64,000 nt of DNA from Lachnospiraceae bacterium. GTDB taxonomy: Bacteria; Bacillota; Clostridia; Lachnospirales; Lachnospiraceae. Below are positions 1 to 63,986 of this stretch, one piece after another. The position numbers were made by a program, and so were the translations under genes. The notes below the pieces were generated by a model. That model was not told where the DNA came from. It was given only the letters and a program-made list of their open reading frames with translations, and did not search any database. The stretch lies in the NCBI GenBank assembly GCA_022483465.1, contig JAKVNF010000004.1:110001-174000 (forward strand), given 5' to 3'. Positions within the stretch are counted from its first letter, which is position 1; every line of letters begins with the position of its first letter.

Positions 1-353
1 CTTTGGTCCATTGCTGAACCTTAAGAATTGATTCAGGGTTGCATTTCTATTTGATTGTCAGATATTTGATTGAGAAAGTTCTCTGCGGTTTTGCCCGCAT
101 CGGCCTGCGAGGCAGGTCGTTTTGCATCCCTCTGTGAGGAGCGGTGCAACAGTCGATATGATACCGTAGACTCAAAATCCTGTCAACCGTTTTTTTTGAG
201 TTTTATCAAGATTTTTCTTTTCCGGTATTTTGTTACCTCCCGGAAAAACTCGGTAAAATATCGCGCCGCCTTTCTCAGGCGGCATGTGTAATCTTAGCAA
301 AGGGATTTTCGATTTGCAAGGGCCGGTTTTGGAATTTGTCGATTTTTCCGTCA
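1..353. other. Intergenic stretch, no gene recognised
   Basis: AT-rich stretch left of the pfkA-cvpA operon. I see no convincing reading frame with a ribosome binding site. It holds a T-run near 190-197 and a GCCGCC/GGCGGC hairpin near 271-285. It could be the far end of a transcript that lies outside the window. Confidence 0.4.
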
Positions 354-3177: not shown

Positions 3178-3777
3178 TCACATTTCCTTTCTGCCCTCCA
3201 GGGCACGAAGCAGTGTCACCTCGTCGATGTACTCGAGGTCCCCTCCCACCGGTACGCCGCTGGCAATTCTTGTCACCTTGACCCCCGTGGGCTTGATCAG
3301 CTTGCTGATGTACATCGCGGTGGTCTCCCCCTCAAGATTCGAGTTCGTCGCGATGATAACCTCCTTCACCGTGTCATCCTGGAGCCTTTGGATCAGCTCT
3401 TTGAGACGGATGTCTCCCGGTCCGATGCCAAGCATCGGGGAGATCGCGCCGTGCAGCACATGGTATAACCCGTTGTACTTTCCAGTCTTCTCATAGGCCG
3501 CCAGGTCTCTGGGGTTCTCCACCACCATGATCGTGCTCCGATCCCGCTTGGGATCGCTGCAGATCGGGCAAATCTCGGTATCCGTCAGGTTCTGGCAGCA
3601 CTTGCAGTAGTGCACGTGCTCCTTTGCCCCGGTGATGGAATCCGAGAGCTTTTTCACCCGCTCCGGCGACATGCTGATGATATAAAAAGCAAGGCGCTGC
3701 GCCGACTTGTTTCCAATACCGGGCAGCGCCGCAAGCTCATCGATTAATTGATTGATATATCCGCTGTATAAATTCAA
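3178..3777 (-). CDS. recR: Recombination mediator protein RecR
   Basis: 199 residues, full length. Domains in order: N-terminal helix-hairpin-helix with [13 protein letters not shown] (residues 18-30), a four-cysteine zinc finger (CKCC near 58 and CPIC near 70), and a Toprim domain (MVVENPRDL near 84, ATNSNLEGE near 124). RecR acts with RecO/RecF to load RecA on gapped DNA. The best start is TTG, giving the typical [15 protein letters not shown] opening; a weak GGCGGG lies upstream and the gap to ybaB is one base. The ybaB-recR pair downstream of dnaX is the classical bacterial arrangement. Confidence 0.96.
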
Positions 3778-3778
3778 A

Positions 3779-4093
3779 TCACATCATCCCGCCGAAAAGC
3801 TGCTCTTCCGCAGCATCGACCTGTCCCAATGCCTCATTGACGGCAGCCATTACCAGTTCCTGCAGGGTCTCCACGTCATCGGGATCCACTGCCTCTTTGG
3901 CGATCTCAACCGAAGTCAGCTTTCTCGCTCCGGTCACGGTTGCCTTGACGGCTCCGCCGCCTGCTGCGGCCGTAAAGGACTGCTGCTCCAGCTGTGCCTT
4001 GCTCTGCTGAAGCTGTGCCTGCATCCTCTGTGCCTGCTTCATCATATTTGCATAGGATCCGGGGATCCCGCCGAAATTACTTCTCTTTGCCAT
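3779..4093 (-). CDS. ybaB: YbaB/EbfC family nucleoid-associated protein
   Basis: 104 residues. A glutamine-rich helical N terminus ([19 protein letters not shown] near 17-35) and the conserved [11 protein letters not shown] strand segment identify the YbaB/EbfC family, small dimeric DNA-binding proteins. It sits between dnaX and recR with gaps of 23 and 1 bases, the arrangement conserved across bacteria. It probably modulates nucleoid structure or recombination, though the exact role is unsettled in the family. Confidence 0.93.
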
Positions 4094-4116
4094 ATTTAAC
4101 CCTTTCGTTTGCCGGA

Positions 4117-7194: not shown

Positions 7195-8104
7195 ATGATG
7201 GATCATAGGAAACTAAAACAGGTAATCTACGATCAGCACGATGTGATCCAGCGCGCGGTGATCGTCCGACGTGAGTACTCGTTTGAGCCCAATGGCAATT
7301 ATATTCTCACAGGAATCCGGCGCTCAGGCAAGTCAACCATTTTATACTCGATGGTCCAGAAGCTCATAGAGGATGGCGCCGACTGGCAGCAGATCATCTA
7401 TGTCAACTTTGAGGATGAGCGCATGGCCGAATTTACCCTGGCGGATTTCAGCGATCTTGTAGAAATAGCCAGCGAGCTGAGTGACAAGACACCTTACTAT
7501 TTTCTGGATGAAGTTCAGAATATCGATGGGTGGGAGCGATTTGCAAGACGCATGGCGGACGCAAAAGAGCATGTCTATATTACCGGAAGCAACTCTAAGA
7601 TGCTCAGCGCCGAGATGGAAGCCCGACTTGGCGCACGCTACTTTTCCAAGGTGATCATGCCCTACAATTACAGGGAGTACCTGGCGGCCAGGGGACTTCC
7701 GCATGATGAGGAAGCCCTATATACATCGAGGGGAATCGGCCGCCTGAAAAGGGCAGCATCTGACCTGATGCACGAGGGCGGTTTCCCGGAATCTCTGAAT
7801 TTTACGGATAAGAGAGCTTATGTAGAAAGCGTATATCAAAAGATTCTTCTTGGTGACATAGCTCTGCGGAACGATATCAGAAACGTTACCGGCCTGCGCA
7901 TCATGATGAATAAGATTGCAGATACCGTTGGCAGGGAGATCTCCTTTTCCAGGCTTTATAATCTTTTAAGAGGGATTGGGGTCAAGCTCAGCAAGGATAC
8001 CATAATCTCCTACATAGGTTTCGCGAAAGATGCCTATCTGATTTTTTCACTGCGCAATTATTTTGCAAGGTTCGAAGAGAGAGAGAGCACACCAAAATAC
8101 TATT

Positions 8105-9318
8105 GGCGTTAGTAAGAAAACGGGTTGATAAGCTCCAAAGCATTTTAGCAGAAGTATAAAATATGCCGTTTTGTACATTCTGCTGTACAACGGCCTTCTC
8201 TAACTTGAACTACAATAGTCTTGCCAGGAGGGCAAGACTATGAGCTGCATTGAGCGCATACTGACCGAAGCCAGAGATCTTTCCAGGGACGACCTGATTC
8301 TTCTTGTTAACAAGCTCATGGAGGGCTTCTCCCATGAGAGTGCAACCTCTTCTCCGAAGAAGATGATTGCTCCCCGTTTGGATTGTCCGATCTGCCATTC
8401 CAATGCTCATGTTGTTAGGAATGGACACAAACATGGAAAACAGGCATACATCTGCAGGCAATGTGGAACGTCATTTGTTACAACGAGCAACACTTTGCTC
8501 TCAGGCTCACACTTTGGTACTGAGATCTGGACCAAGGTTCTGGAAGAGACGCTCAGGGGGACCTCTCTGGATAAGACGGTCAAGTCACTTGCCAGCCATG
8601 GATGCAAGATCAGCCATAGCAGTCTGTTCTTCATGCGGCATAAGATCATGCTTGCGCTCGAGGACATGCAGGTGGAGCAGCCAGCCACGGTGGAAGATGT
8701 CGTGGAAGCGGATGAAACCTACGTTCCGGAGTCCAAAAAAGGTACGAAATTTGGCCCTGATGCCAGTCGAAAGCCCCGCAAGCGTGGCACTCCCGCATCC
8801 AAACGCGGCCTTTCAGACGAGCAGATCTGTATCTGCACCGCAGTACAGCGCAAGACTGGCGATCTGATCGTGAAATCCGAGAACCGGGCAAGGCCTTCCA
8901 GTGCGGATGTTGTTGATATCTATACTGGTCATGTCCAGAAGGGAACACTTTTCCTGACGGACGGCATGAATGTGTATCCAAGACTGGGCAAGATCCTGGG
9001 AATCACGGTCATGAATGTGAAGAAGGAGTCGGCAAGTTTCTTCAATCTGAACACTGTGAACAACCTTCACTCCTTTATCAAGCACCGCTATATCGAATAT
9101 CGCGGCGTGGCTACCAAGTATTTGAACCGTTACAACCTCGTATTCCGGGCAGCGTACAGGCAGAGGACCACGATTGGGGAACTTGCGGACGCTCTCTTTG
9201 CATCCAGGAATCCCAAGAAGGTACACCATTATGGAGATGTTAAGGAGCTCAATCTGCTTGCAATTTGATGACTACAAGATGCACTTATTGCTTATCAACC
9301 CGTTTTCTTACTAACGCC
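8105..9318 (+). mobile_element. IS1595 family insertion sequence, complete
   Basis: 1214 bp, bounded by inverted repeats that begin GGCGTTAGTAAGAAAACGGG (the first 29 bases match the reverse complement of the right end). It is flanked by an 8-bp direct duplication ATACTATT (8097-8104 and 9319-9326). Length, one transposase and 8-bp duplications all fit the IS1595 family. The same terminal repeats mark two 308-bp MITEs at 22.1 and 27.5 kb. Confidence 0.95.
8240..9268 (+). CDS. IS1595 family transposase
   Basis: 342 residues. N-terminal zinc-binding motif CPIC-x19-CRQC (near 53-80) followed by the DDE-type catalytic core: VEADETYVPESKKG (near 156), FLTDG (near 235) and NNLHSFIKHRY (near 272). 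ATG preceded by AGGAGGGCAAGACT. It appears intact and could act on its own ends and on the related MITEs. A frameshifted relative lies at 60.0-60.9 kb. Confidence 0.95.
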   Translation: MSCIERILTEARDLSRDDLILLVNKLMEGFSHESATSSPKKMIAPRLDCPICHSNAHVVRNGHKHGKQAYICRQCGTSFVTTSNTLLSGSHFGTEIWTKVLEETLRGTSLDKTVKSLASHGCKISHSSLFFMRHKIMLALEDMQVEQPATVEDVVEADETYVPESKKGTKFGPDASRKPRKRGTPASKRGLSDEQICICTAVQRKTGDLIVKSENRARPSSADVVDIYTGHVQKGTLFLTDGMNVYPRLGKILGITVMNVKKESASFFNLNTVNNLHSFIKHRYIEYRGVATKYLNRYNLVFRAAYRQRTTIGELADALFASRNPKKVHHYGDVKELNLLAI

Positions 9319-10181
9319 ATACTATTTCGAAGATACCGGGCTCCTAAATCTTTTTCTTATCAACAAAGACACCGCCCTATTGGAAAATATGGTTGCCGTT
9401 GCCCTAAAACGCTCCTACAAAGAAAAGATTTTCTACTTTAAGTCAGAAAAAACCGGATTAGATATTGATTTCTACGTGCCAGAGCGCGCAACCGCCATCC
9501 AGGTGGCATACAGCATCTCCGACACCGCTTACGACCGGGAAGTAAACAATCTGATACGGCTTGCAGGTTCCTTTCCGGAGGCAAAGCGTTTTGTCATCGT
9601 GACAGCGGATGAGGACAAATCAATCCGGGAAAACGGCGTAGAGATTGAAGTCCTTCCTCTTTACCGTTTTCTGTTGGAGTTGTGATTTTCCCCTCCGTTT
9701 TCGGCATCTGATATATGTATCGCCTCCACCCGTAAAACGGGTGGTTCGGGATGCGGGCTATAAGCCCGCTTTACTAGCCAGCGCCTAAAGACGCTGGCTT
9801 TCGCTTTAAAGGCCCTTGGGAGCTTTCGCTCCCTCGGGCTCCGCTCAAGCCTCTTTTGCTTTTATCACCTGGCCGCCCCTAAAGGGGCGGTTTTTTACGT
9901 CCTTTCTTGTGGATCCTTTCCAGGCTTCGCCCCGAAAGGATCCTCGTACTCCTTCACACTCATCTTATCCTGCAGGATGTCTGCTCTCTCCTGATCCCGG
10001 ATATACTTCTTTACCGTCGCATCGTTTAATCCCACCGTGCTGACATAATACCCCTCAGACCAAAAGTGCCGGTTCCCAAACTTGTATTTCAGATTTGCGT
10101 GCCGGTCAAACATCATGAGCGAACTTTTCCCCTTCAAGTAACCCATAAACGAGGCTACGCTGATCTTTGGCGGAATGCTTA

Positions 10182-57394: not shown

Positions 57395-58600
57395 CTATTG
57401 GCGATTTACTGAATTACAGGAATGCTTTCGTTTGTTTGAAGGACGGTCCTCAAGAAGAGTCTTTTTATAACCATCAGGAGTGTAAGGCTCGATCTTGAAT
57501 AACACATGCCAGATAGCGGTTACAAGCATGCGGCAGATTGCAATGATGGCCTTTTTGTGTCCATGACGGGCTTTGATTCTGCGGTAGCGGCTGACGAATT
57601 CAGGATGATCTTTTGAATTTACCAGTGCATTTGCTATCTGAACGAGCAGCGGTTTGAGATAATTCCCGGCTTTCGATATCCTGCGGGATTTGATTTTTCC
57701 GCCACTGCCATCATTTTTAGGACACAATCCAGCCCAGGAAGACAGATGTTTGGAAGTTTCAAACACAGACATGTCTCCACCGGTTTCTGCAAGTATATAA
57801 ATAGCGGTGAAAGGATTTTTATCAAATCCGGGGATAGTTCGTATAAGTTCGAGAGCATCTCCATACGGCTCGGAAAGATCAATTACTGCATTTTCGATAT
57901 GCTTTTTGTGAGCCTCAAGTTCATCGATGTGATCCATACAGGCTTGTAGCTTAACTGCCTGAGCGGGGCTTATCGCACCGTCTACAGCGGCCTGGATCTC
58001 CTCGATCGGAGTCTTGCATCTGGGATCAACAAAAGGGGTAACATCAAACTTTTCATTTGGATGATCCAGCATATATCGGATGATTGAACTTGAAGATTTC
58101 CCAAATACGTCGGAAAACACATCATCAAGTTTCAGATTAGATACAGTGAGACAGTTCAGGGCACGGTTTTTCTCACCCGTTATCGTGTTAGTCAGTTTGG
58201 TGCGGTACCTGCATAGTTTCCGAAGATCACGGATATCTTTCGACGGCACAAAACTTGGTCGGATCATGTCACACATATACAGATCACAGATCCATTTAGC
58301 ATCCTTTACATCCGTTTTGTTCCCCTTCTGAGGTTTGGTGTATTTAGGATGTGCAAGACAAACATGGATATTTCTTGATTCAAGTACGTTGAAGACAGGA
58401 ACCCAATAGTCGCCGGCTGATTCCATTGCAATATCATCGCACTTGAATTTCTCAAGGAAATCGCACATTTGGTTAAGTCCTTTTGTAAAGGAACCGAACC
58501 GCTGTTGGTGATATTCAGTACGCCCTTTATCGTCTGTAATACCAATGCAGACGTAGATCCAGGTTTTATGGACATCTGCACCGGCACAGTTTTTACGCAC
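57395..58600 (-). CDS. IS110 family transposase 2, 3' end replaced by element 1
   Basis: 401 residues, GTG start. DEDD: GADVHKTWIYVCIG, AMESAGDYWVPV and GNKTDVKDAKWICD; C-terminal TIPGFDKNPFTAIYILAETG and SRRISKAGNYLKPLL. The last codons lie in element 1's inverted repeat, so the native C terminus was changed by a few residues. May still be active. The start abuts the truncated third IS110 gene. Confidence 0.88.
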   Translation of the reverse strand: MRKNCAGADVHKTWIYVCIGITDDKGRTEYHQQRFGSFTKGLNQMCDFLEKFKCDDIAMESAGDYWVPVFNVLESRNIHVCLAHPKYTKPQKGNKTDVKDAKWICDLYMCDMIRPSFVPSKDIRDLRKLCRYRTKLTNTITGEKNRALNCLTVSNLKLDDVFSDVFGKSSSSIIRYMLDHPNEKFDVTPFVDPRCKTPIEEIQAAVDGAISPAQAVKLQACMDHIDELEAHKKHIENAVIDLSEPYGDALELIRTIPGFDKNPFTAIYILAETGGDMSVFETSKHLSSWAGLCPKNDGSGGKIKSRRISKAGNYLKPLLVQIANALVNSKDHPEFVSRYRRIKARHGHKKAIIAICRMLVTAIWHVLFKIEPYTPDGYKKTLLEDRPSNKRKHSCNSVNRQ

Positions 58601-59243
58601 GATTTATCGAATCCTTGGTACAGCTGCCGTCTCTGCTGATTGTAAAACCGAACTTCAGAAGGCCATTTGTAATTCGGTTATTGATTCTGGTGGCCATTTT
58701 CGAGCATTGGTATCGCTGCGCGAGTAAGAGACGAAGCTGCTGAATATCAGATGACGGAATATAGGATTCCCTCCAGATGCCGTTAATATCATGAATGGCA
58801 AGCATTCTGGCATCAAGAACATCCGTTTTACGTTTGGTTGCGCCAGCAAGAGATGGATTGATGATACTTGGAATCCCCTTCCAGACCTTTATGACGGGGA
58901 GGTGATAGCAGGCTGTGGATTCGATTACGTAATGAAGGGTATCGTCTGAAACTTCAATGGTAGGAGATGATTTGGAACGGATTATGGATATCGCCCATTC
59001 ACGTCCCTGCTCAAGCACGGGGAGCGTTGTACTAAACTCATGGCGGTATTCGAAGACCTTTCCGCCATCACCTTGGACGATCACACTGACCTGAATGAAC
59101 TCAGAATGGCAATCAATACCAACGCCATACGATTTGGTATGGACAACTTCAATTCCCTGCTCATTCTGAATGCTGATCTGACTGGAAACTTCCGATTCAT
59201 AGGACGGGGGACCAGAATCGTTACGATGTTTGTGACAAGGCAT
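58593..59243 (-). pseudogene. IS110 family transposase 3, C-terminal truncated
   Basis: 216 residues from the ATG at 59243 (GGGAGGTATCACT upstream). N-terminal DEDD half only: GVGIDCHSEFIQVSV, YVIESTACYHLPV and KRKTDVLDARML, then LLKFGFTISRDGS. It stops at the start of transposase 2, which inserted or recombined there. The Tnp_20 half is missing. Confidence 0.85.
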
Positions 59244-59440
59244 AGTGATACCTCCCGGAATGAAATGATTTTTGCCAGGGCAACACACAACAAATGCATT
59301 ACGCAAGTCTTTACCAACTGCCTTCGAAAGTAACATTGCAAAAATCGCAGATGTTATAATCGACAAGGCGGTATATGAAGACAACTCTCCTCTAGGTGCT
59401 TTACAAGCACATGACAAAAATCGCAATACCGCCAGACCCA
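59244..59440 (-). ncRNA. Candidate bridge RNA in the 5' end of IS110 element 3
   Basis: The non-coding region upstream of the transposase contains a stem GGCGGTAT/ATACCGCC (59367-59374 with 59426-59433) enclosing a perfect hairpin GTGCTT/AAGCAC (59396-59401 with 59405-59410). IS110-group elements encode the bridge RNA here. Boundaries are guesses. Confidence 0.45.
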
Positions 59441-59558
59441 AACTGATATAAGAACATTCAAAGATGCTATAGACAATAGCGGGCTCTGATTGCAAGACTA
59501 ATTTATCACATAATTGGTCTTTATCAAAGACATATTTGCAAATATATAAGGCGGTGTC

Positions 59559-59903
59559 ATGCGAAAAACAGAAAGAATACCTGTAAATGATCCTGTTATC
59601 GAGCGAATCGAGACTTTGCTTAGAGAAAATAATCTCAGCCAGCAGCAATTATTGAAATACCTGGGACTTAGTACGACTGCCTTTACACGTTGGAAATACG
59701 ATAACGGAAAATCCTATGTGAAATATATAGATCAGATTGCAAAGTTTCTTGGCACAACATCATACTATCTTTTAAATGGTACCGAATATAAAGAAATGAA
59801 ATTGAACGACAGAGAGCTGACAATGCTGGATTTATTTCGAAATGCTTCAGAAGACATGCAGGCAGCAATCATGGCCACGTTGAGAGCTTCTAATAAAATA
59901 TAA
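59559..59903 (+). CDS. XRE family HTH transcriptional regulator
   Basis: 114 residues. HTH in LLRENNLSQQQLLKYLGLSTTAFTRWKYDNGKSYVKYID, of the type found in Firmicute mobile elements and phages; C-terminal helices. AAGGCGG precedes the ATG. AT-richer than its surroundings. It lies between IS110 and IS1595 remnants with no partner gene. Confidence 0.82.
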   Translation: MRKTERIPVNDPVIERIETLLRENNLSQQQLLKYLGLSTTAFTRWKYDNGKSYVKYIDQIAKFLGTTSYYLLNGTEYKEMKLNDRELTMLDLFRNASEDMQAAIMATLRASNKI

Positions 59904-60045
59904 GATATAAAGTTTTTATAAACTGATCTCTAAGAGGAGATAACATAATAGTTGCGGAAGGCATTTTCTGTATATTTTTCATACAACATCGGTGCCTTTC
60001 GCAGAAAGGCGGTTTATAGCAATGTAAAAATTTGTAGGAACATAT

Positions 60046-60894
60046 TTATACAGCAAACATATTCAGTTCCTTGACATCATCATGGTGATGCACTCTCTTC
60101 GGATCACGCACCAGGAAGAGCTTCTCTGCAAGTTCATCCACCGACATCCTCATCCGGTATGCTGCACGGAATACCATGTTGTAGCGGTTCAGGTACTTGG
60201 TAGCCACACCGCGGTAGTCGTAGTAGCGGTTCTTGATGAAGCTGTGCAGATTGTTAACCGTGTTCAGGTTGAAGAAGCTGCCTGTCTCCTTCTTCACATT
60301 CATAACGCTGAGTCCCAGTACCTTGCCCAGCTTCGGATATACGTTCAATTCCGTCCGTAAGGAAGAGGGTCCCCTTCTTAACATGACCTGTGTAGATGTC
60401 GACGACATCCTCTGTGGAAGGTCTTGCACAGTTCTCTGACTTTACAACCAGATCGCCGCTTTTGCGCTGAACTGCAGTGCAGATGCAGATCTGCTCGTCA
60501 GAAAGGCCGCGCTTGGATGCCGGAGTACCGCGCTTGCGTGGCTTTCTCTTGGCGCCAGGCCCAAATTTTGTCCCTTTCTCCGACTCTGGTACGTAGGTTT
60601 CGTCAGCCTCAACGACCTCCTCGACCATTGCAGGACTGACCTCCTGAAGATCCTCAAGCGCCAGCATGATCTTATGCCTCATAAAGAAGAGGCTGGTATG
60701 GCTGATCCGGATATGCTGAAGATCAAGTCCATCTCTTGTGTCATCAAGGGATACGCCCATAAGCGTGTCAGCAAGGACGGCCTTCCAGACATCACTGCTG
60801 TAATGTGAGCCAGACAGAGGCGTGCTACTTGCTGTAACAAATGACTTTTCGCATGCCCGGTACAGAAATGTCTGCTCGCCATGCTTGTGACCAT
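60046..60894 (-). pseudogene. IS1595 family transposase, 5'-truncated and frameshifted
   Basis: Related to the intact transposase at 8240-9268. It begins within the zinc-finger region (NGHKHGEQTFLYRACEKSF) because its 5' end is replaced by the repeat array at 60901. VEADETYVPESEKG is kept. One extra base at 60347-60348 shifts FLTDG-MNVYP; the rest continues to 60046 (SFFNLNTVNNLHSFIKNRYY). Confidence 0.88.
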
Positions 60895-60900
60895 TGAGTA

Positions 60901-61320
60901 TTCCGGTCCAAATTAGGCCCCCATTCCGGAGTTTTGAGTACCGCTGTTCCGGTGGAGTAATACCGGCCGTTCCGGTCAAGCAATACCGACAAATCCGTAC
61001 ATTGATACCACAGATTCCGGTGTCAGAGTACTGATTTTCCGGAGAATCGAGTACCGGAAGTTCTGGAAATCCGGATACCGAAGTTCCATTTCCATGAATA
61101 CCACTGATTCCGGAAGCATTAGTACCAGTCATTCCGATTTTTGTAGTACCAGTGATTCCGGCGATGATCAGTACCACAGATTCCGGTTGTCAGTACTGCC
61201 ATTTCCGGACTTCCGGATACCGCTATTCCGGCAGCTATGATACCGACCTTTCCGAACCACAGGATACCGATGGTTCCGGTCTGCTGAGTACCGGGATTCC
61301 GGTCATTCTGTACCGTGTGC
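60901..61320. repeat. Array of 18 degenerate 23-bp units upstream of istA
   Basis: TTCCGG-type cores start at 60901, 60924, 60947, 60970, 60993, 61015, 61037, 61061, 61084, 61108, 61132, 61156, 61181, 61203, 61226, 61250, 61274 and 61297 (spacing 22-25). Each is followed after 7-9 bases by RTACC. Placement just before istA suggests iterated IstA binding sites of an IS21 end. Confidence 0.85.
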
Positions 61321-61384
61321 AGGGCACACCTCCTATACTGAAGTTATGCGCGAATAGCGCAAATACTATGAAGGAGGTGTCAAA

Positions 61385-62353
61385 ATGACACACTATCGTG
61401 AAATTCTGAGGCTGGGCCTAAACCCGGATCCTCAGAAGAGGCTTAGTCAGAGCAGGATAGCTCAAAGCTGCTGCGTCTCTAAGTCCACTGTCAGTCACGT
61501 TTTGAAACGGGCTGGTGAACTGGGGCTCAAATGGCCGCTCGCGGACGATCTGACCGATGTTTCGCTTGGCCGGATGCTTTATCCATCCGAAAAGGACGAG
61601 GATAAGCCAGATGACACGGCGGCCAACAAGAAGATGCCGGACCTTGAGCGGATCCACAAGGAACTGCTCCGGCAAGGCGTCAACAAGAAGCTCCTGTGGA
61701 CCGAGTACCTCGAGGAATGCAACCTTGAGGGAAAGACAGGGCTTCGGTACTCACAGTTCTGCTACTACATCCAGCAGGACGAAGCCAAGAGGAACGCTGC
61801 ATTCCACAAGACCTATAAACCCGGTGAACAGGTTGAGGTCGACTGGGCCGGTGACCCTCTCTACCTGCAGGGAGCGGAATCCGGTCGGCGGATCCCCGTT
61901 TACCTCTTTGTCGGCGTCCTTTCCTACAGCCTTTACCCGTTCGCTGAGGCCTTCATGAATGAGAAGACTTCGTCATGGATCAAGGCTCATAACGACATGT
62001 TCCATTACTTCGGCGGCGTTACGAAGATCATCGTGCCTGACAATACGAAAACCGCTGTGGTTCACGGAAAAGCCAAACCAAGGAAGTTTACCTATGATGA
62101 TCCGGAACTCAATGCCGTTTATCACGACCTGGCAGAGCATTATGACGTGGCAATTCTTCCTGCACGAGTCAGAGCACCTCGGGACAAAAACAATGTAGAG
62201 GCCGCTGTCGGCTTCGTGTCCACCTGGATCACTGCAGCTCTGCGCGATGAGCAGTTCTTCACAATCGAGGAACTCAATAAAGCCATTCATCGAAAGCTCG
62301 AGAAACTGGCTGATGAACCCTTTGAGAAAAGGGAACTCAAACTTCCCACTTGA
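61385..62353 (+). pseudogene. istA: IS21 family transposase IstA, C-terminal truncated
   Basis: 322 residues kept of about 500. AAGGAGGTGTCAAA precedes the ATG. HTH LSQSRIAQSCCVSKSTVSHVL; DDE core VEVDWAGDPL, IVPDNTKTAV and NNVEAAVGF. The C-terminal DNA-binding region and istB are missing; the frame runs at FEKRE into the inverted repeat of the IS4 element. Confidence 0.9.
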
Positions 62354-63986
62354 AAAATGCTGTAACAGCCGATGGTTTCTTGCTCAACAGGTGATTTTTT
62401 GAAACTTGACAGCATTATGCAACTTTATCGCTTGTTAGAAACAAATTTAGGAAGTCGCGGAACAGGTTCTGTATAAACTCAGGCTGTGTCGAAAACCAGT
62501 TCGTCAGGTCGCTACGCATCTTTTCGGAGATCTGAATGGAGACATCACCTGTTCTGACCCCCTCGATCAGCATTGCAGCAAGACGGTCAATCGACTGCTT
62601 CAGGGAAATATCCTGAATGTCATCACAGCAGACGAAGAACAGCTCACAGATGGTCTTGGGATCATTCTTCTTGCGACGGATATACTCGAGAATGAGAAAT
62701 CGTGTGAGCACGAGTGCAGTTGTGCTGTCGGTTACGTCGTAGCTGAGTCCTTGAAACTCCTTGCCAAGCTTGAGAAGGGACTTACATGCCCTGAAGCATA
62801 CCTCGATGCCCCACCTGTAGCCATAGATTCTGACTACCTCACTGTCGGGCAGAGTCACCGCAGTGGTCAGAAGGATGATGTACTCATCCTTCTTGTTGCG
62901 ATTGCGGACAAAGACCAGCTTGACAGGAAGCTGCTGATACTTCGTTTTGACAACAATGGACCCGAACAGGTTCCCCTGCGGGCAATGACGGATGGCAGTC
63001 TTCGCAAGGCCTTTCAGGTTATACAGCCTGCCTTTGTACCAATACTGCTGCTTGGTATCTTTGAGCATGCCGATCACCTCAAGGCCGAGGTTCTTGATGT
63101 TGCAGATGAACGGTTCTGTCGTGAACCAGGTATCCATGAGCACGTATTCGGCTTTGATATCAGCGTCAATGGCGAAGCGAAGCAACTGAAGTGCAATCAC
63201 GGGCTTTTGCGTAATTGCATCCACCCGTCTCTTGTACGCGTTGGTGTTATGACGCAGGTGCTTGTCGTATACGTCGCAGATGCGGCTCTTAGCCTTGGCC
63301 GAAGCAAGCATGATGTACTGGACCGGAAGGAAGCTGTATCCATCGGTCCACCCAAGAAGAAGGAGATTAAATCCCCTCTCGGTTCTGTGGATCACGTGAT
63401 TGTAGACATTGGAGAGCAGCTCCACCTTTTTGGAACGGTTACGGGCGATGACAGAGTCATCGAGCACGAAGCATCGTGCCCTGTTCTCGCGGGTAAGAGT
63501 AGTGAAATAGGCGGCAATCCTGGCGGAGAGGATCAGGATGAACTTTCTCCAGTTGTAGCGTCCTTCATTCAGGAAGCGGTAGTAGGTGTTATCGTCATAG
63601 GCAGTATCCTTCTTCTTGGAGTTGAGGAAGTGATACAGGTTGCACTTCTGGAACACGAGGATTACAAGAAACTGAAAGAGCTCATATGCAGAGGCACCCT
63701 TCGCCTTGGTGATATTGGAGGCCTTCAGGAGAGCGCTTACGCCAAGCTCTTTCATGGCGTTTCCAAACGCACATTCGTCCTCGAAATTAGCAGTTGCAAT
63801 TGGCTTGTTTTGATGTATACTCATTGTGAGCACCTGTACTTTCTTTTGATTGTGGATGATCTTATTATAGAAGGCACAGAGTGCTTTTTCAATTGTCAAG
63901 AAGCCGAAAAACTCATAGTAAAAAGCTCAATTTTGGGCGTATTTTCAACGTTTTTCGAGGGTCGGACCAAGTGGGAAGTTTGAGTT
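62334..63986 (-). mobile_element. IS4 family insertion sequence
   Basis: 1653 bp between AACTCAAACTTCCCACTTG (62334-62352) and its exact inverted copy (63968-63986). One transposase. No matching target duplication is visible (left flank GAGAAAAGGG, right flank ATGATGTACC), so a deletion or recombination followed insertion. Confidence 0.85.
62415..63824 (-). CDS. IS4 family transposase
   Basis: 469 residues from the ATG at 63824. DDE motifs: VLDDSVIARNRSKK, YVLMDTWFTTEPF, and the YREK box YGYRWGIEVCFRACKSLLKL (Y-x2-R-x3-E-x6-K). Intact. An upstream extension of 25 codons lacks a ribosome site. Confidence 0.93.
   Translation of the reverse strand: MSIHQNKPIATANFEDECAFGNAMKELGVSALLKASNITKAKGASAYELFQFLVILVFQKCNLYHFLNSKKKDTAYDDNTYYRFLNEGRYNWRKFILILSARIAAYFTTLTRENRARCFVLDDSVIARNRSKKVELLSNVYNHVIHRTERGFNLLLLGWTDGYSFLPVQYIMLASAKAKSRICDVYDKHLRHNTNAYKRRVDAITQKPVIALQLLRFAIDADIKAEYVLMDTWFTTEPFICNIKNLGLEVIGMLKDTKQQYWYKGRLYNLKGLAKTAIRHCPQGNLFGSIVVKTKYQQLPVKLVFVRNRNKKDEYIILLTTAVTLPDSEVVRIYGYRWGIEVCFRACKSLLKLGKEFQGLSYDVTDSTTALVLTRFLILEYIRRKKNDPKTICELFFVCCDDIQDISLKQSIDRLAAMLIEGVRTGDVSIQISEKMRSDLTNWFSTQPEFIQNLFRDFLNLFLTSDKVA

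Follow-up and report, generated by a model that had tools for sequence, protein, structure and literature searches.

An IS21-family insertion sequence of a Lachnospiraceae bacterium with an exceptional left end of 18 units resembling IstA sites

The locus and the borders of the element

The window, i.e., the whole analysed stretch of 64,000 nucleotides from the genome of a Lachnospiraceae bacterium, contains an insertion sequence of the IS21 family in which an array of 18 short units precedes the transposase gene istA. The array and the genes on its two sides are arranged as follows (window coordinates):

60018..60894, minus strand: gene for an IS1595-type transposase, interrupted at about codon 59 by the IS21 insertion
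60895..60906, plus strand: left IS21 tip (TGAGTATTCCGG), set where the two genomic copies begin to be identical; relatives have the same tip type
60901..61315, plus strand: array of 18 units resembling IstA sites (TTCCGG core, spacer, RTACC box), recognized by pattern and by co-variation of box and HTH-1 in relatives
61385..62333, plus strand: 5' part of istA with HTH and DDE regions (NF033546, 205.7 bits, cut-off 160; Pfam rve), broken by an IS4-family element
62334..63986, minus strand: IS4-family element in istA with perfect 19-bp inverted ends; no istA follows it

The left tip was set at 60895, six bases before the array start given in the initial annotation, because the identity of both genomic copies starts at this position. 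The initial annotation also held that the array had replaced the 5' half of the IS1595 transposase, which proved incorrect, as the gene breaks off at about codon 59, where the IS21 element begins. In all six other copies of the IS1595-type gene in this genome an open reading frame runs across the codon-59 point (two of the six have a 336 aa ORF), showing that the array arrived with the IS21 element. The tip-gene junction together with the reading frames across this point in 6/6 copies rules out that the array is a substitute for IS1595 sequence. The family name IS1595 was taken from an intact relative in locus L017 (NF033547). The surroundings, from 57395 to 63986, are crowded with transposases of the IS110, IS1595, IS21 and IS4 types, with insertions of one element into another.

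The array was searched for outside this element, and the element for copies lacking the array. One other copy of the element exists in the genome (contig C1, locus L016); it carries the same array with three differences in 490 bases, and the array occurs nowhere else in the genome. This second copy comprises the array, istA with an ISAzo13-family insertion, a putative istB and the inverted right tip, spans 4535 bp including the insertion, and is bordered on both sides by GACGCG, a 6-bp target duplication. The duplication is seen at L016; the window copy has lost its right end as well as its istB region. The terminal inverted repeats with TG/CA read TGAGTATTCCGG on the left and, at the right end of the second copy, TGAATATTCCGG inverted. 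The putative istB of this copy is a 253-aa ORF starting 4 nt past istA, which scores just below the profile cut-off (NF038214, 199.7 bits, E 5.5e-59, cut-off 200). The part of istA missing from the window copy occurs once in the genome, namely at L016. As both istA copies are interrupted, neither an unbroken istA of this type nor an intact cognate IstA was found in the assembly.

The window istA encodes an IstA-type DDE transposase, and its profile score, the TG/CA tips, the target duplication and the two-box repeats bear out the assignment to IS21 made initially. Several repeats with two conserved boxes each, about 23 bp apart, are the layout of this family. Eighteen units are more than is usual (two or more), yet no upper unit limit applies to IS21 membership, and the element is an IS21-family member with an exceptional left end. 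The array was also rejected as a plasmid feature, as its DNA matched none of 72,556 plasmid records.

Structure and evolution of the array

The array consists of 18 TTCCGG-type cores on the plus strand between 60901 and 61315, 13 of which are exact; the remaining five read AATCCG, TTCTGG, TTCCAT and twice TTCCGA. The units are located as follows:

60901..61060, plus strand: outer seven units, gaps 22-23 bp, relatives alike; the split into outer and inner units was made post hoc
61061..61315, plus strand: inner eleven units, gaps 22-25 bp
Core starts 1-9, plus strand: 60901, 60924, 60947, 60970, 60992, 61015, 61037, 61061, 61084
Core starts 10-18, plus strand: 61108, 61132, 61156, 61181, 61203, 61226, 61250, 61274, 61297

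A recount confirmed the 18 cores; their gaps range from 22 to 25 bp (mean 23.29, sd 0.85), and the mean agrees with the earlier estimate of about 2.2 helix turns per unit. The box after the core is RTACC in 15 units and GTACT in two, so that 17 of the 18 cores are followed by one of these boxes; the first unit has GGCCC instead. On the plus strand of the 64-kb window, 15 of the 19 matches to TTCC[GA]-N5..10-[AG]TAC[CT] fall within the 0.42 kb of the array. Moreover, the longest chain of TTCC[GA] cores comprises ten in the array vs a maximum of three in 1000 dinucleotide shuffles. Tandem Repeats Finder and an ungapped repeat finder detected the array only in fragments.

The cores are 84% and the boxes 81% identical among the 18 units, whereas the seven bases after each core are identical at 27%, with 26% expected. 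Comparing spacers at unit lags 1-11 likewise gave identities of 22-32%. With random spacers between conserved boxes, the 18 sites look as if they were individually maintained; for want of a diverged copy, selection on the boxes is read here from a single element. Spacers without similarity at any of these lags leave no trace of fresh duplication, and a recent tandem amplification is ruled out.

Whole units can nevertheless be gained or lost in IS21, as shown by two related elements, L166 and L167, which are 96.8% identical over 2688 bp and carry five and seven units, respectively. This pair speaks for a neutral growth of the array, in which whole units come and go by slippage or recombination and the surplus has no added function. 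We consider this improbable, as boxes that stay 81-84% alike though the spacers lost all similarity are not expected of unused units. The spacing is not uniform: the six outer gaps measure 22-23 bp as in relatives, and seven of the eleven inner gaps exceed 23 bp (post hoc comparison, one-sided p 0.017). Transpososome geometry may thus be preserved in the outer seven units, with a looser task for the inner ones.

Left and right ends of related elements

The initial annotation considered 18 units to be more than known IS21 ends carry, and the survey of relatives agrees. From 105 oriented loci, 69 distinct left ends were obtained, next to ten duplicates and 26 loci in which the tip was not clear or the units numbered less than three. 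Among the 69, three units occur in three ends, four in 33, five in 28, six in one and seven in four; 244 of their 246 unit gaps are 21-23 bp. The start of istA could be placed in 66 of 77 related loci. The longest array in a broader set of IS21 loci is that of L167 with seven units.

The ranking depends on how chains of cores are counted. A strict chain rule was applied to 86 broader IS21 loci (89 of the 90 fetched loci were entered, the own copy L345 being omitted, and three were too short); under it the window array scores seven, the same as L167. Because the window cores vary, this rule is unfit for ranking arrays. An earlier chain rule gave 13 for the window vs at most seven among 33 loci, and a tolerant rule gave 19 for the window (the 18 units and one chance core beyond the end), eight for L167 (seven by eye) and five for L166.

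A two-unit RTACC pattern, which requires exact cores, matched one of 392 genomes of the order, namely the own genome. Among genomes of the family, 106 of 397 matched in the pattern scan, and another long array may exist there beyond the matches listed. Own copies aside, the nearest IstA in 62 genomes of the genus and 397 of the family is 62% identical. A single match to the two-unit pattern on a viral contig was rejected, since its neighbourhood shows a short unrelated direct repeat; a looser viral pattern matched at least 80 loci. No report of an IS21 end this large was found in the literature searched, the coverage of which excludes most subscription journals.

Thirteen rows of the comparison, the own element among them, show a right tip, some of these being doubtful; right units were counted by eye. 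The right end of the second genomic copy has three units, so that the enlargement is at the left end only. Five relatives (L044, L048, L025, L066 and L128) have a small GCGGCGGAGCCGC-type palindrome between right-end units one and two; none is present at the right end of the window's element, as seen in copy L016.

Box type and helix residues of IstA

The only solved relative found is IstA of IS5376. According to excerpts of the cryo-EM study on this element, its terminal repeats lie 23 bp apart and contain two conserved boxes about 10 bp from each other, of which CS2 is contacted by HTH-1 and CS1 by HTH-2, with R31 and K32 among the box-reading residues (PMC10122671). In the relatives of the window element the second box comes in four types. 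When the columns of 61 distinct IstA N-termini were ranked against box type, residues 33, 34 and 37 in the first HTH came out on top. For 53 proteins with a usable catalytic domain the helix residues 33/34 and the box pair as RN with GAGCC (19), KK with AAACC (16), QK with AAATC (8) and KT or KS with TACC (8); the remaining two are RK intermediates, one with AAACC and one with GAGCC, giving an agreement of 51/53. Residues 33/34 align with R31/K32 of IS5376 in a HMMER profile, although that stretch scores only -0.5 bits.

A catalytic-domain tree requires 16 changes of box type and likewise 16 of helix type (residues 33/34). Independent pairs on well-supported branches agree in five of five cases for AAATC, three of three for TACC, three of four for GAGCC and seven of eight for AAACC; the non-agreeing pairs show no difference and are never opposed. 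Only AAACC reaches a p value below 0.05 in the pair test (0.0156), the other three types having too few pairs. The pattern resembles a joint exchange of the DNA-binding part with the ends, at about 16 switches on this tree.

The window IstA carries K33 and S34 and belongs to the TACC class, matching the array. The two-box 23-bp layout shared with IS5376 and the joint change of box and HTH-1 in relatives suggest that the units are very probably IstA sites, in line with their initial description as IstA repeats, and the array is almost certainly an IS21 left end composed of such sites. Such a link between box and helix residues would allow matching IS21 ends with their transposases from sequence. 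Longer arrays with mixed boxes occur in L043, L047, L075 and L078, where the outer units have GAGCC and those nearer the promoter AAACC or AAATC; their IstA helix is of the GAGCC type despite the mixed boxes.

Promoter and leader of istA

The array extends to the putative promoter of istA, for which the following features were located:

61310..61314, plus strand: innermost RTACC box, whose end is 19 nt upstream of the likely -10 box
61334..61339, plus strand: likely -10 box TATACT of istA, aligned with TATAAT-type boxes of relatives
61328..61378, plus strand: inverted repeat, in which the arm 61328-61334 (-10 region) pairs with 61372-61378 (ribosome-binding site)

A consensus promoter scan of the plus strand of the istA leader returned no promoter and no consensus -35, so that the position of an operator relies on the relatives. 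The distance from the innermost box to the -10 box is 14-19 nt, near the -35 position, in 39 of the 58 elements with both signals, and lies outside this range in the other 19, some of them via mis-assignment by the script. The leader inverted repeat has a folding z of -4.34, and its inner hairpin (61347-61361) shows changes on both sides at three of six pairs among 39 sequences. In read-through transcripts this inverted repeat could mask the ribosome-binding site.

Possible functions of the array

We tentatively regard a cooperative IstA lattice combined with an operator, by which the element damps its own transposition, as the likeliest function of the array. The three to seven IstA-binding repeats of relatives would have expanded to 18 at the left end, each unit taking up one IstA monomer with HTH-2 on TTCCGG and HTH-1 on RTACC. 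For the transpososome, the outermost left units would act with the right end of three units, and the surplus inner units would reach as far as the promoter of istA, where the last RTACC box is close to the -35 position. The inner units may form a cooperative lattice that soaks up transposase away from synapsis, and a filled array would close the istA promoter, making transposition self-limited.

Published work bears on this proposal. IstA bound to the ends of IS5376 occludes parts of the promoter, and it binds an end with two repeats cooperatively, the Hill coefficient being 3.6 (PMC10122671, excerpts). Furthermore, multiple terminal repeats were proposed to hold IstA autoinhibited (PMC11208146, excerpts), and an extra internal end site restricts the activity of piggyBat (PMC11707139, excerpts). 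From these we infer that the array may draw off IstA by cooperative binding along its length and repress istA by closing its promoter. Damping would be incomplete, as the 18-unit element reached two places. A stricter form of this proposal, which we consider unlikely, would make the IstA-coated left end of about 420 bp an ultrasensitive self-limiting switch: the array has to be filled before transposition, and its filling closes the promoter. If true, a bacterial insertion sequence would count its own transposase through an array of sites.

The initial annotation suggested control of istA or an assembly platform, and both remain live options. As a loading platform, the extra units would raise the local IstA concentration and aid assembly at the left end or capture of the right end, resulting in more transposition at low IstA. 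IstA of IS5376 is monomeric alone and assembles cooperatively on the repeats (PMC10122671, excerpts), the enlargement is confined to the left end, and the 18-unit element has moved to two places, all of which would fit such a platform. However, the IS5376 transpososome requires two repeats per end and is active with these (PMC10122671, excerpts), and relatives with three to seven units spread too; we consider a platform somewhat unlikely.

Neutral growth, weighed above, ranks next, and target immunity is distinctly improbable. In the latter case array-bound IstA would strip IstB from nearby DNA and thereby shield the element and its surroundings from insertions. IstB resembles MuB and TnsC, and early IS21 work suggested immunity (both cited in PMC11208146, excerpts). 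Against this, both copies were cut by insertion sequences, although these belong to other families and have no bearing on self-immunity. Finally, control of istA by folding of transcripts over the array is hardly credible: the array RNA folds more stably than 100 of 100 shuffles (z -3.40), but CCGG and GTAC are self-complementary so that repeats of these boxes fold well trivially, and the co-change of the box with the IstA helix fits a protein site.

Comparison with known systems

IS5376 resembles the window element in istA and a putative istB, TG/CA ends, a short target duplication, and 23-bp terminal repeats whose two boxes are spaced by about one helix turn, and differs in having two repeats per end (L1/L2 and R1/R2) as opposed to 18 on the left and three on the right (PMC10122671, PMC11208146, excerpts). 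The IS21 relatives from Lachnospiraceae and other Bacillota share tip, core, promoter and hairpin at the ribosome-binding site with the window element, and their IstA proteins are about 51-62% identical to the window IstA over its N-terminal 317 residues (full-length matches); they have three to seven left units vs 18 here. Like the present element with its putative istB, Tn7-like transposons with their TnsB sites have several transposase sites per end, asymmetric ends and an AAA+ partner protein, but they belong to a different family; the sites of Tn7 number three on the left and four on the right (PMC8649781, excerpts). Similarly, one end of piggyBat contains an additional internal site for the transposase, and subterminal sequence restricts its activity. 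It differs in having three sites and in belonging to the eukaryotic piggyBac superfamily, and its restraint was shown experimentally, whereas for the window array a restraint is proposed (PMC11707139, excerpts).

The IS5376 authors regard it as an open question what additional terminal repeats do in Tn7 elements (PMC10122671, excerpts), and for IS21 a role of additional repeats appears, in the excerpts of a later paper, as a proposal only (PMC11208146). The 18-site end, the relatives with three to seven units and the pair L166/L167 form a series that would relate site number to istA expression and transposition.

Apart from the array, a partial duplication was observed in locus L017 beside a broken IS21 copy, where the C-terminal portion of a 692-aa ORF at 7322-9400, which resembles a lysyl-tRNA synthetase, recurs as a 167-aa ORF (3608-4111).
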